Source: Nitrospirota bacterium (lineage in GTDB: Bacteria; Nitrospirota; JACRHL01). Taken from it: DNA of 64,000 bases. Shown here one piece after another: positions 43,504 through 48,404 of the stretch. Position 1 is the stretch's first letter. Every line of letters starts with the position of its first letter. The DNA lies in the NCBI GenBank assembly GCA_016212085.1, contig JACRHL010000019.1:186001-250000 (forward strand), read 5' to 3'. The position numbers and the translations under genes were made by a program. Under the pieces are notes generated by a model. It saw nothing but the letters and a program-made list of their open reading frames with translations, was not told where the DNA came from and searched no databases.

Positions 43504-44667
43504 ATGGGCCCGTTTCCCGTGCGTTACTTCGACCACATCAACTGTGCCCCGCCCCTGGAGGAAGTGGTCCGGGCCATGGCCCCGTGGCTGTCGGCCCCCG
43601 CCGACCCGCAGGCGGAGCATGCCGCCGGGCGCCGCGCCCACATGGCGCTGGAGGCGGCGCGCGCCCAGGTGGCGGCGCTGATCGGCGCCTACCCGGCCGC
43701 CGTGCTGTTCACCGCCACCGGCAGCGAGGCCAACAACCTGGCGGTGAAGGGCTACCTGAAGGCCAACCGGCGCCGGGGCACGCGCATCCTGGTGTCGGCC
43801 GTGGAGCACCCCAGCGTGGAGCGCGCCTGCCGGCGCATGACCGCCGACGGCTACACCCTGGACACGCTGCCCGTGGACCGCCACGGCCGGGTGGACCCGG
43901 ACCACCTGGCCCGCCACCTCACGGACGACACCGCCCTGGTGTGCGTGCAGCTCGCCAACCCCGAGGTGGGCACGGTGCAGCCCATCGCCGAAATCGCCTC
44001 GCGCCTGGCCGGCACCCGGGCCGCCCTGATGGTGGACGCGGTGGCCGCCGCCGGGCGGATGCCCATCCACGTCGAGGAGCTGGGGGCGGACCTGCTCACC
44101 CTCTCCGCCAGCACCCTGGGCGGCCCCGCCGGGGCGGCGGCGCTGTATGTGCGGCGCGGCCTCCGGGTGCAGCCCGAGATCGACGGCGGCGTGCAGGAGA
44201 ACGGCCAGCGCGGCGGACTGGAGAACGTGGCGGCGGCGGTGGGCTTCGGCGTGGCGGCCGGGCTGACTGCACAACGGCTGGCCGACGCATCCGCCCGCCT
44301 GAACGCCCTGGCGGAACGCTTCCGGGCCGCGCTCTCCGGCCACCCGGCCATCGCCTTCAGCGGCCATCCGGAAACCCGCCTGCCCGGCCACGTCAGCCTG
44401 CTGGTGGCCGGCGCCGAGGGGCAGAGCCTGCTCACCCTGCTGGACAAGGCCGGGGTGGCGGCGGCGTCCGGCTCCCACTGCGGCGCCAAGGCCATGAAGG
44501 CCTCGCCGGTGCTCACCGCCATGGGCTATCCGGCCGCCCAGGCCCTGTCCGGCGTGGTGTTTTCCTTCGGCCCCGGCAATTCCCCGGAAGAGGTGGACCA
44601 GGGGGTGGAACTGCTGCAACAATGTATTGATGACAGCCAACGGGCCCTGCCGGGCGCCGCGGGATAG
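43504..44667 (+). CDS. NifS/IscS-like class V aminotransferase-fold protein lacking the PLP lysine
   Basis: This 387-residue protein aligns along its whole length with class I cysteine desulfurases: TGSEANNLAVKG, VEHPSVERACR, ANPEVGTVQPI, GGVQENGQRGGLENVAAAVG, and ASGSHCGAKAMKASPVLTAMG with the catalytic cysteine. However the PLP-binding SxHK motif reads LSASTLGGPAG (about residues 200-210), so His and the Schiff-base Lys are Ser and Thr. The Gln in VDAVQ is also Ala. It therefore cannot be a normal desulfurase. TusA follows 75 bp downstream. It may be a persulfide carrier, scaffold or regulator. Confidence 0.85.
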   Translation: MGPFPVRYFDHINCAPPLEEVVRAMAPWLSAPADPQAEHAAGRRAHMALEAARAQVAALIGAYPAAVLFTATGSEANNLAVKGYLKANRRRGTRILVSAVEHPSVERACRRMTADGYTLDTLPVDRHGRVDPDHLARHLTDDTALVCVQLANPEVGTVQPIAEIASRLAGTRAALMVDAVAAAGRMPIHVEELGADLLTLSASTLGGPAGAAALYVRRGLRVQPEIDGGVQENGQRGGLENVAAAVGFGVAAGLTAQRLADASARLNALAERFRAALSGHPAIAFSGHPETRLPGHVSLLVAGAEGQSLLTLLDKAGVAAASGSHCGAKAMKASPVLTAMGYPAAQALSGVVFSFGPGNSPEEVDQGVELLQQCIDDSQRALPGAAG

Positions 44668-44742
44668 GCCGCGCGACCGGGGCGCGGGCGCGGGCATCCC
44701 TTCAAGGCCGGGGCCCGTGCCGATAGCAAGGAGCAAAACGCC

Positions 44743-44970
44743 ATGCAAGCGGACACCACCGTGGATGCCACGGGCCTCTACTGCCCGATGCCGATCATCA
44801 TGACCGCCAAGGAGATCAAGAAGCTCACCAGCGGCCAGGTGCTGGCGGTGAAGGCGGACGACCAGGGCATCCAGGCCGACCTGCCCGCCTGGTGCAAGAC
44901 CACCGGCAACGAACTCCTGGAGCTGACCCGCGCCGGCGCCGTGTTCACCGGCTACGTGCGCAAGAAATAA
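44743..44970 (+). CDS. tusA: TusA-family sulfurtransferase
   Basis: This 75-residue protein has the TusA fold and its signature GLYCPMPI, with the persulfide-carrying Cys14, and a second cysteine at Cys51 (AWCKTTGNELL). TusA relays sulfur from desulfurases or rhodaneses in tRNA thiolation, molybdenum cofactor synthesis or sulfur oxidation. The Cys-Pro motif followed by a PAWCxxxGN segment is the form seen in sulfur-trafficking TusA/DsrE-associated proteins. AAGGAG precedes the ATG. Its partner is probably the adjacent NifS-like protein. Confidence 0.9.
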   Translation: MQADTTVDATGLYCPMPIIMTAKEIKKLTSGQVLAVKADDQGIQADLPAWCKTTGNELLELTRAGAVFTGYVRKK

Positions 44971-45072: not shown

Positions 45073-45657
45073 ATGCCGCAAGTAACCTCCCCGGCGCCGG
45101 ACTTCAAGGCCCAGGCCCTCATGCCCGACAAGACCTTCCAGGAACTGACCCTGTCCAAGTACCGTGGCAAGTGGGTGGTGCTGTTCTTCTACCCGCTGGA
45201 CTTCACCTTCGTCTGCCCCACCGAGATCATCGCCTACTCCGACAAGCAGGCGGAGCTCGACAAGATCAACGCGCAGGCCATCGCCTGCTCCGTGGACAGC
45301 CACTACACCCACCTGGCGTGGGTGAACACCCCCCGCGCCGAGGGCGGCCTGGGCGCGATGCGAATCCCCATGGTGGCCGACCTCACCAAGCGCATCGCCG
45401 CCGACTACGGCGTGCTGCTGGACGGCGGCATCGCCCTGCGCGGCACCTTCATCATCGACCCCAACGGCAACATCCGCCACAGCACGGTGAACGACCTGCC
45501 GGTGGGCAGGAACGTGGACGAGGCGGTGCGCATCATCCAGGCCTTCCAGTACGTGGAGGAGCATGGCGAGGTGTGCCCCGCCGGCTGGCAGCCGGGCGCC
45601 GACACCATGGTGCCCGACCCCCAGAAGTCCAAGGCCTACTTCTCCGCCCACGCCTGA
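45073..45657 (+). CDS. Typical 2-Cys peroxiredoxin (AhpC/TSA family)
   Basis: This 194-residue peroxiredoxin has the peroxidatic cysteine at Cys48 (FTFVCPTE) and the resolving cysteine at Cys168 (GEVCPAGW). It reduces peroxides in the cytoplasm using thioredoxin-like donors. The YF-type C-terminal segment SKAYFSAHA is present, as in oxidation-sensitive Prx1-type enzymes, with the GG-type loop as [16 protein letters not shown] precedes the ATG. It stands 102 bp after tusA on the same strand. Confidence 0.95.
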
Positions 45658-45860: not shown

Positions 45861-46652
45861 ATGAGGTCGCTGTTCTCCGTCCTGGGCGCCCAGGTGCGCA
45901 AGGGCCTGTTCGAGGTCCAGTACGGCACCGCCCTGACCGTGCGCGCCTTCGGCGCGGTGTTCTCCGGTGGCGCCGTGCGCCGCCGCGACATCATCGAGCA
46001 GATGGACGTGCTGGGGGCGGGCTCGCTGGGCATCGTCGCCCTCACCGGCCTGTTCGCCGGCATGGCCATGGGCATGCAGTTCTCCATCGAGCTGGGGGTG
46101 TTCGGCGCCAAGGACTACCTGGGGCGCATGGTCACCGTGTCCATCATCCGCGAGATGGGGCCGGTGCTCACGGCGCTGATGGTGGCCGGGCGGGTCTGCT
46201 CCGGCATCGCCTCGGAGCTGGGCGGCATGAAGATCGGCCGCCAGGTGGACGCCCTCCGGGTGATGGGCATCGACCCGGTGTCGAAGCTGGTCATGCCGCG
46301 CATCGTGGCGGTGCTGGTGATGCTGCCCATCCTGACCATCATCGCCGACACCCTGGCCATCCTGGGCGGCTGGGGGGTGGGCACCACCGTGGGGCACCTG
46401 AGCTTCGACACCTACTGGGCCTCCGTGGACCGGGGCCTGACGGTGCAGAACCTGCTGGGCGGCGTCATCAAGCCCATGGTGTTCGGGGTCATCATCGGCG
46501 CCGTGGGCTGCACCTCGGGGCTGCTCTCGGCGGGCGGCGCGCGCGGCGTGGGGCGCGCCACCACCGAGGCGGTGGTGAAGGCCAGCATCCTCATCCTGAT
46601 CGCCAACTTCGTGGTGGGCTACGTGGTCATCAAGGCGCTGGGCTGGGCATGA
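45861..46652 (+). CDS. mlaE: MlaE-family ABC transporter permease
   Basis: This 263-residue membrane protein has five or six helices. The family motifs are MGMQFSIELGVFGAKDY, IIREMGPVLTALMVAGRVCSGIASELG and the conserved MKIGRQVDALRVMGIDP loop. It forms the inner-membrane permease of a phospholipid-transport (Mla) system that maintains outer-membrane lipid asymmetry. The order mlaE-mlaF-mlaD differs from the enterobacterial mlaF-mlaE-mlaD. It overlaps mlaF by four bases (ATGA). Confidence 0.93.
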   Translation: MRSLFSVLGAQVRKGLFEVQYGTALTVRAFGAVFSGGAVRRRDIIEQMDVLGAGSLGIVALTGLFAGMAMGMQFSIELGVFGAKDYLGRMVTVSIIREMGPVLTALMVAGRVCSGIASELGGMKIGRQVDALRVMGIDPVSKLVMPRIVAVLVMLPILTIIADTLAILGGWGVGTTVGHLSFDTYWASVDRGLTVQNLLGGVIKPMVFGVIIGAVGCTSGLLSAGGARGVGRATTEAVVKASILILIANFVVGYVVIKALGWA

Positions 46653-47371
46653 TCGCCTTCGAGAACGTGGATTTCTGCTACGAGGACGGCACCCAGGTGC
46701 TGTTCGACGTCAACCTGCGCGTGCCCGACGGCACCACCCTGGCGCTGCTGGGCGCCAGCGGCTCCGGCAAGACCACCCTGCTGCACGTGCTGCTGGGCCT
46801 GCTCAAGCCCACGGGCGGCCGCGTGCTGGTGGACGGCCAGGACATCGTGCCCATGCGCGAGAAGGCCCTGTCCGACGTGCGCGAGCGCATGGGCGTGGTG
46901 TTCCAGGACGGCGCCCTGTTCGACTCGCTGACCGTGGGCGAGAACGTCTCCTTCTACATGCGCGAGCGCATGCGGCTCGACGAAGACGAGATGGAACGGC
47001 GCACCCTGGAGCAGCTCAAGTACGTGGGCCTGTCACACACCATGGACCTGATGCCCGACGAGCTCTCCGGCGGCATGCGGCGGCGCGTGGCGGTGGCCCG
47101 CGCCATGGCCGCGTTCCGCCCCACCATCATGCTGTACGACGAGCCCACCAGCGGCCTGGACCCCATCACCGCCGACAGCATCTGCGACCTGATCCGCCAA
47201 GTGGGAACGGAGCAGAAGCTCACCTCGATCATCGTCACCCACCGCCTGCGCGACGCCTTCAAGGTGGCCGACCGGCTGGTGCTGTTCCGCGCCGGGCGCA
47301 TCTATTTCGAGGGCACCTGCGACCTGCTGCGCGCCGCCACCGATCCCTACATCAAGCGCTTCATGGCCTAG
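46649..47371 (+). CDS. mlaF: MlaF-family ABC transporter ATPase
   Basis: This 240-residue ATPase has Walker A ([11 protein letters not shown]), the ABC signature ([16 protein letters not shown]) and Walker B ([12 protein letters not shown]). The sequence [21 protein letters not shown]-type Q-loop is seen as [13 protein letters not shown]. It energises lipid transport by MlaE and MlaD. The ATG overlaps the mlaE stop. Its TAG stop is the first part of a CTAGGGCC repeat junction. Confidence 0.95.
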
Positions 47372-47420
47372 GGCCTGTTCGGGGCAGCAACGCCACCCGC
47401 GAATTTGTGTGCACAGGCCC
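47371..47420 (+). repeat. Small inverted repeat with GGGCCTGT ends at the mlaF stop codon
   Basis: GGGCCTGT (47371-47378) and ACAGGCCC (47413-47420) are perfect inverted ends of a 50-bp segment. Its first G is the last base of the mlaF TAG. It lies inside the mlaE-mlaF-mlaD operon, just before mlaD. Confidence 0.6.
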
Positions 47421-47465
47421 CAAGGTCCCTGGCAAACCGGGCGCCACAAGGTACAATAGGCCTCC

Positions 47466-48404
47466 ATGAAACGCAGCACCAACATGGCCTGGGCCGAGCT
47501 CAAGGTCGGCATCCTGCTGGTGGCGGCGGTGCTCATCGGCACCGTGTCCGTCGTCTCGTTCTCGGGCATCCGCGAGTATTTCCGCCCCACCTTCGAGGTG
47601 CACGCGCACATGGAGAAGGTGGCGGGCCTGAAAACCGGCGCCGTGGTGATGCTATCCGGCGTGATGGTGGGCAACGTGGCCGCCCTGAATCTGGCCGCCG
47701 GCACCGGCCAGGGGGTGGACGTGACCCTCAAGATCTACACCCAGTACCAGAACGCCATCCGCCAGGACGCCAAGGCCACCCTGGGCTCCCAGGGGCTGCT
47801 GGGCGACAAGTACATCGAGATCGAGGCCGGCAGCGGCGACGCCCGGCCGGTGCGGCCCGGCGACATCATCGCCTCCGGCGGAGACCCGTCCGACATCACC
47901 GGCATGGTCGGCCAGGCCGAGGATGCCACCCGGCGCCTCAACACCCTGATCGACGAGCTCACCGCCCTCACCCGCCAGGTGCGCGCGGGCCAGGGCAGCG
48001 TCACCCGCCTGCTGGACGATCCGGCCCTGTTCGAGGGCGCCAGGGATGCCGCCCGGCAGGTGGGCGGCACCGCCCGCGAGCTCTCCGGCACCGCCCGGGA
48101 GGTGAGCGACACCGCCAAGGCCTATGCGGAGCTGGGCGAACGCCTGCGCCAGAGCCTGGTGGAGCAGGACGGCACCCTCAAGCGCCTGGCCCAGGACCCG
48201 GCCCCCTTCGAGCACCTCACCGACGCCATCGTCAAGCTCGACGCCATCCTGCTCAAGGTCTCCCAGGGCGAGGGCAGCCTGGGCAGGATGGTCAACGACG
48301 ACCAGGTGGCCGACGAGCTCACCGGCCTGTTGCAGGACATGCGCCGCCTGGTGAAAAAGATCGAGGAGCACCCCAAGGACTACCTCAAGATCACCGTGTT
48401 TTGA
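47466..48404 (+). CDS. mlaD: MlaD-family MCE-domain lipid transport protein
   Basis: This 312-residue protein has one N-terminal membrane anchor (LKVGILLVAAVLIGTVSVVSF) and one MCE domain (about 40-125; KVAGLKTGAVVMLSGVMVGNV, then LGSQGLLGDKYIEIEAG). A long, mostly helical C-terminal tail follows. The tail makes it longer than E. coli MlaD (about 180 residues) and could reach across the periplasm. It binds lipid for the MlaE/F transporter. A TACAAT hexamer at 47452-47457 might give it an additional promoter. Confidence 0.92.
   Translation: MKRSTNMAWAELKVGILLVAAVLIGTVSVVSFSGIREYFRPTFEVHAHMEKVAGLKTGAVVMLSGVMVGNVAALNLAAGTGQGVDVTLKIYTQYQNAIRQDAKATLGSQGLLGDKYIEIEAGSGDARPVRPGDIIASGGDPSDITGMVGQAEDATRRLNTLIDELTALTRQVRAGQGSVTRLLDDPALFEGARDAARQVGGTARELSGTAREVSDTAKAYAELGERLRQSLVEQDGTLKRLAQDPAPFEHLTDAIVKLDAILLKVSQGEGSLGRMVNDDQVADELTGLLQDMRRLVKKIEEHPKDYLKITVF

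Follow-up and report, generated by a model that had tools for sequence, protein, structure and literature searches.

The enzymatic supply of sulfur to Fe-S clusters is generally ascribed to IscS. In A. fulgidus, the PLP-binding lysine of IscS is replaced by an aspartate, and the protein is reported to be without desulfurase activity and to provide a cysteine ligand for the cluster on IscU (PMC7585200). IscS1 of M. acetivorans likewise lacks the PLP-binding residues, including the essential lysine (PMC7585200). In E. coli, IscU contacts the C-terminus of IscS, and IscS without residues 376-404 fails to bind IscU; in the complex of IscS with TusA, the two cysteines lie about 4 A apart (PMC2854127). 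TusA and IscU are reported to compete for E. coli IscS (PMC11302665).

Here we describe a locus in a window of 64,000 nucleotides of DNA from a Nitrospirota bacterium, where a homologue of class I cysteine desulfurases without the PLP lysine (hereafter the window NifS) is encoded with tusA and a peroxiredoxin gene (Table 1). The original prediction, made from the letters of the DNA, had proposed a new use of the fold, as a persulfide relay, scaffold or regulator rather than a desulfurase. The novelty was only partly right, since IscS without the lysine is already known as a kind: an inactive form working with IscU from A. fulgidus, and M. acetivorans IscS1 as well.

Table 1. Features of the nifS-tusA-prx cassette, in window coordinates.
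Feature	Position	Strand	Basis
nifS, class I cysteine desulfurase homologue without the Lys, 387 aa	43504..44667	+	ORF, ATG start
His102 codon, PLP-stacking His, retained	43807..43809	+	alignment
Pro153 codon, site that is Asn in 62/62 relatives with both Lys and Gln	43960..43962	+	alignment
Asp178 codon, partner of the PLP pyridine nitrogen, retained	44035..44037	+	alignment
Ala181 codon, site of the VDAVQ Gln	44044..44046	+	alignment
Thr204 codon, counterpart of E. coli IscS Lys206, which forms the Schiff base with PLP	44113..44115	+	alignment
Cys326 codon, mobile-loop persulfide cysteine (SGSHC), retained	44479..44481	+	alignment
tusA, 75 aa (Cys14 at 44782-44784)	44743..44970	+	Pfam TusA, E 3.5e-23
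prx, peroxiredoxin, third in the cassette, common to all four family genera	45073..45657	+	Pfam AhpC-TSA, E 1e-37

Residues and fold of the window NifS

Pfam recognized the product of the gene as Aminotran_5 (E 3e-55, 188 bits). It misses the NCBIfam equivalog cut-off of class I cysteine desulfurases (NifS/IscS): the best model, that of NifS (TIGR03402), gave 313.6 bits, far under its cut-off of 530.75, and the IscS models gave 223-233 bits for cut-offs of 548-643. As had been read from the DNA, the lysine of the SxHK motif is missing, the motif being S-A-S-T, the glutamine of VDAVQ that hydrogen-bonds PLP is an alanine, and the persulfide cysteine of SGSHC is in place. The claim that only cofactor residues were lost fared less well. 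The lysine and the glutamine are indeed gone, but two PLP contacts, His102 and Asp178, are kept, and further pocket positions have changed as well, namely Asn to Pro153, the His before the Lys site to Ser203, and the LGR arginine to Pro357. This arginine was tried as a marker of loss and dropped, as it varies in both groups with 22 changes on the tree. The assembled genome carries an identical protein (100%) without internal stop.

An AlphaFold2 model obtained with 30 sequences adopted the NifS/IscS fold (pLDDT 90.9, pTM 0.90); the Cys loop (326-329) and the stretch around residues 221-240 were modelled with low confidence. When the model was compared with the PDB by Foldseek, A. fulgidus IscS was the best match, at TM 0.92-0.93, and supplied the first hits (4hvk, 4r5f and 4eb5). 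Human NFS1 followed, and E. coli IscS stood at lower ranks, its complex with TusA among the hits. Sequence search also ranked A. fulgidus IscS first.

The tusA gene begins 75 bp downstream of nifS, the distance given in the original prediction. Its product retains the landmarks Cys19, Asp45 and Asp51 of E. coli TusA and a CPxP motif with the active cysteine, and it scores 58.2 against an NCBIfam equivalog cut-off of 78. After the peroxiredoxin gene come lipid transport genes (window 45861-48401), recognized by eye from their sequences as MlaE/MlaF/MlaD-like, and a like order was seen at two other loci (L207 and L209). Rubrerythrin genes lie close to Lys-less nifS at L041 and about 21 other loci, which parallels the peroxiredoxin of the window family as peroxide defence beside Fe-S/sulfur genes.

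A clade without the lysine

Among 113 homologues of a first set, the lysine was missing in 86, a proportion that is not a population frequency since resemblance to the window protein decided which sequences entered the set. In place of the lysine stood Q, R, A, S, P, D, L, M, T, H, V, G or N. An alignment of 170 rows was drawn from this first set, 60 control NifS/IscS places of the same 61 genomes, and A. fulgidus IscS. The loop cysteine was present in all 170 sequences. Lys and Gln were both absent in 92 of them and both present in 62; 13 had the Lys only and three the Gln only. On the tree, five changes suffice for the Lys state. In a tree of 64 rows, computed without the trait columns, the bacterial Lys-less proteins and the window family fell into one group with an SH-aLRT of 99.4, which also took in three proteins with the lysine (L095, L104 and L102). 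For the 170-row tree, midpoint rooting was unreliable owing to very long SufS-like branches (L168 and L184) and only unrooted groupings were used. According to organism titles and taxonomy, the clade spans Actinomycetota, Chloroflexota, Thermodesulfobacteriota, Myxococcota, Bacillota, Elusimicrobiota, Nitrospirota, Verrucomicrobiota and others.

Two further kinds of protein with changes at the Lys site were encountered. The proteins on the long branches L168 and L184 are distant NifS/SufS-like proteins that read SSGRMGGPPG or SSSRWGGPPG at this site and have no iscU or tusA nearby. In the same phylum as the window, six Rrf2-IscS-IscU operons of family f10 (L175, L180, L185, L190, L191 and L192) encode, within a core ISC operon, an IscS with Leu at the Lys site (NAHL), Ile or Gly for the PLP-stacking His and Asn for the pyridine Asp; it keeps the cysteine and a SPLYEMA tail and is without tusA linkage. 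This loss of PLP residues is independent and more thorough.

In the main clade, the PLP-stacking His and the pyridine Asp were present in all 76 Lys-less members, and they are present in the window family too. As both are retained throughout the clade, the pocket may continue to accept PLP or PMP and support some chemistry. The window NifS could then hold the cofactor non-covalently and keep desulfurase or other PLP chemistry, another residue acting as the base. We consider this unlikely. The residues found at the Lys site (Q, R, L, A, P, S, T, M, V, G) provide no consistent alternative base, the Gln and the His before the Lys are lost together with it, the window family has in addition lost its pocket Asn and LGR Arg, and A. 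fulgidus IscS, where Asp occupies this site, is reported to be inactive (PMC7585200). Since the Lys and Gln are missing, the pocket carries further changes and this precedent exists, we infer that the window NifS is unlikely to desulfurate.

Linkage to iscU and tusA

Flanking ORFs of the loci were clustered and the assignments were confirmed by Pfam on representatives. The clusters, all on the same strand, comprised IscU at 81 loci, TusA at 74, an Rrf2 regulator at 34 and a DsrE-like protein at 25. Among the sampled loci, tusA was linked to 64 of 94 Lys-less genes against 7 of 75 with the lysine, iscU to 73/94 against 30/75, and dsrE to 25/94 against 0/75, these counts being minima as some flanks end at a contig or locus edge. 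Fisher p-values for these contrasts take no account of relatedness; once it is counted, the association between the Lys state and tusA comprises only 3-5 independent pairs and is not significant. Most of the tusA-linked Lys-less genes lay in rrf2-nifS-iscU-tusA-(dsrE) operons. In a control set of NifS/IscS paralogues with the lysine from the same phylum, tusA was found within 4 kb of none (0/51); given this and the linkage across phyla, chance adjacency to tusA was rejected, although the test corrected for phylogeny has too few independent events to reach significance. A few clade members that have the lysine are likewise linked to tusA (L095, L100, L104, L108 and L102). At five loci (L095, L100, L104, L108 and L109), the IscU encoded next to a clade member with the lysine and tusA is about 190 aa long and carries a double zinc ribbon at its C-terminus.

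The partner proteins look functional from their sequences, because the three cluster cysteines of IscU are present in 66 of 66 Lys-less operons and the TusA cysteine in 72 of 73 TusA partners. In each of two genomes rated 100% complete (G006 and G031), the single iscU adjoins a Lys-less gene, and a search for a SufB/D core found none. Each also has a desulfurase with the lysine elsewhere (L139, L193), a possible persulfide source for the cell. In these two organisms, the Fe-S scaffold apparently works beside a Lys-less IscS. IscU, which the first reading of the window had missed, is the usual partner in the clade and is lost in the window family.

The window family

Homologues from three other genera of the family (G001, G002 and G003, G002 being the Nitrospirota MAG of L001) showed 60-62% identity and open frames. 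When these tusA-adjoining homologues were aligned, a check put forward with the original prediction, all had Thr or Ser at the Lys site, Ala at the Gln site and the cysteine in place. In each, tusA lies 20-93 bp downstream of nifS and is followed by the same peroxiredoxin gene, giving the order nifS-tusA-prx.

In none of the four genera was iscU found beside nifS (0/4). The sole iscU of the window genome accompanies an IscS with the lysine on contig C3, in a canonical ISC operon made of an IscR-like Rrf2, this IscS, IscU, ferredoxin and IscX; no SUF was found in this genome. It also contains a tusA-dsrE-dsrE-tusA cluster (C22) and a tusA adjoining an SQR-like flavoprotein gene (C16). DsrC, searched for with regard to dissimilatory sulfur metabolism, was absent in 4/4 of the family. 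Among proteins linked to IscU, 99 of 103 carried a C-terminal LRxxSP motif, as did 22 of 65 unlinked ones; none of the four of the window family had it. The missing iscU and the missing tail, read with the E. coli data on the IscS C-terminus, indicate that binding to IscU has most likely been lost in the window family. On this evidence, the family can be regarded as a further derivative of the Lys-less clade, from which the operon iscU and the LRxxSP motif were lost. TusA is the only sulfur partner remaining in the cassette. The iscU gene has also left the operon in family f6 (L205 and L206), the second such case, where an rrf2-nifS-tusA operon has Arg at the Lys site and a retained SPLY tail, with iscU on another contig.

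The window NifS might still be an Fe-S assembly partner like that of A. fulgidus, its cysteine serving as a ligand for a cluster on IscU, which the canonical ISC operon would provide in trans. The nearest solved structures are A. fulgidus IscS and its complex with IscU, and iscU belongs to the operon in most of the clade. We nevertheless find this role improbable for the window family, whose iscU stands outside the operon next to an IscS with the lysine and whose proteins miss, in 4/4, the C-terminal motif of IscU partners.

A proposed persulfide relay

We favour, at slightly better than even chances, the view that the window NifS is a non-catalytic descendant of IscS/NifS, taking up and relaying persulfide as the partner of TusA. 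Without the usual lysine-PLP internal aldimine, it should not cut the sulfur out of L-cysteine. Cys326 on the flexible loop would instead exchange sulfane sulfur with Cys14 of TusA. The invariant cysteine, together with a linked gene for a persulfide carrier, argues for such a Cys-to-Cys exchange, and the E. coli complex, with its neighbouring cysteines, shows that the geometry exists in this fold. Genomic linkage gives no direction of transfer. A Lys-less partner should be unable to make a persulfide itself, so TusA would most likely be the donor, itself loaded elsewhere, either by the genome's lysine-containing desulfurases or, by way of the DsrE/TusA system, from sulfide/polysulfide. For most of the clade, the sulfur would then pass to the operon-encoded IscU, with Fe-S clusters built from persulfide-delivered sulfur; in the window family, where IscU and the C-terminal docking motif are gone, a TusA-paired relay or buffer would remain beside the peroxiredoxin. 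Both the direction of flow and the final acceptor are what we infer. In the original prediction, the part that set a relay or scaffold against a desulfurase is thus the better founded one: the clade-wide loss of Lys and Gln, the kept cysteine and the tusA linkage support it well, as far as comparison of sequences can.

A regulator or sink has also to be weighed. Pseudoenzymes often act as regulators, and the window NifS could sequester TusA or form mixed dimers with the canonical IscS that tune its output. The reported competition between TusA and IscU for E. coli IscS (PMC11302665) would fit such a role. We hold it to be quite unlikely, because the persulfide cysteine is conserved without exception, which pure binding would not need, and no regulatory gene is linked in the window family. 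Finally, a sequencing error (about 44107-44118) or a decaying pseudogene can be ruled out with near certainty, since four genera share the altered state, the gene order and open frames.

Returning to the relay, a wider reading can be offered tentatively, at clearly less than even chances. Across many phyla, Fe-S clusters would be built by a complex of Lys-less IscS, IscU, TusA and often DsrE, into which sulfur would enter as TusA persulfide without PLP-dependent desulfuration on site. The IscS-to-TusA direction would be reversed, and the window family would be the surviving IscS-TusA half. If this were true, a persulfide pool would supply Fe-S assembly in many organisms, the archaeal case of A. 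fulgidus would be no oddity, and the automatic annotation as cysteine desulfurase would be wrong for a large group. It makes testable where the sulfur comes from when the IscS beside IscU is dead.

Comparison with known systems

In the literature searched, we found no report of a bacterial Lys-less IscS with TusA, which is weak evidence of novelty as many subscription papers lay outside the coverage. The same search returned neither the bacterial clade, its link to TusA/DsrE and the IscU-free, TusA-paired branch, nor complete genomes without SUF in which a Lys-less protein is the only neighbour of IscU.

A. fulgidus IscS (PDB 4eb5, 4eb7 and 4hvk; D199K variant 4r5f) resembles the window NifS in its fold (TM 0.92-0.97), in the missing lysine and in the kept cysteine, and both have Ala at the Gln site. 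The Lys site is Asp in the former and Thr in the latter, where the pocket Asn and Arg have in addition become prolines. While A. fulgidus IscS has an IscU partner, the window NifS has neither this partner nor the LRxxSP tail (each 0/4 in its family). In the full tree, the A. fulgidus IscS clade stands apart from the window clade, although one common group was not rejected (p-AU 0.89). M. acetivorans IscS1, likened here by its published description, also misses the essential lysine but is encoded with IscU1 in an iscSU cluster. The minimal ISC system (MIS), with MisS and MisU, resembles the clade operons in its two-component desulfurase/scaffold layout; unlike the Lys-less clade, it is described with a cysteine desulfurase (PMC12192291).

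The E. coli IscS-TusA relay is like the window pair in its IscS fold and in a mobile Cys loop that faces the TusA cysteine (PMC2854127). Several salt-bridge residues of that interface are not conserved, by eye, in the window proteins. E. coli IscS makes the persulfide from cysteine by way of Lys206-PLP and hands it to TusA, whereas the window NifS should lack such chemistry, so that the flow of sulfur would have to begin elsewhere.
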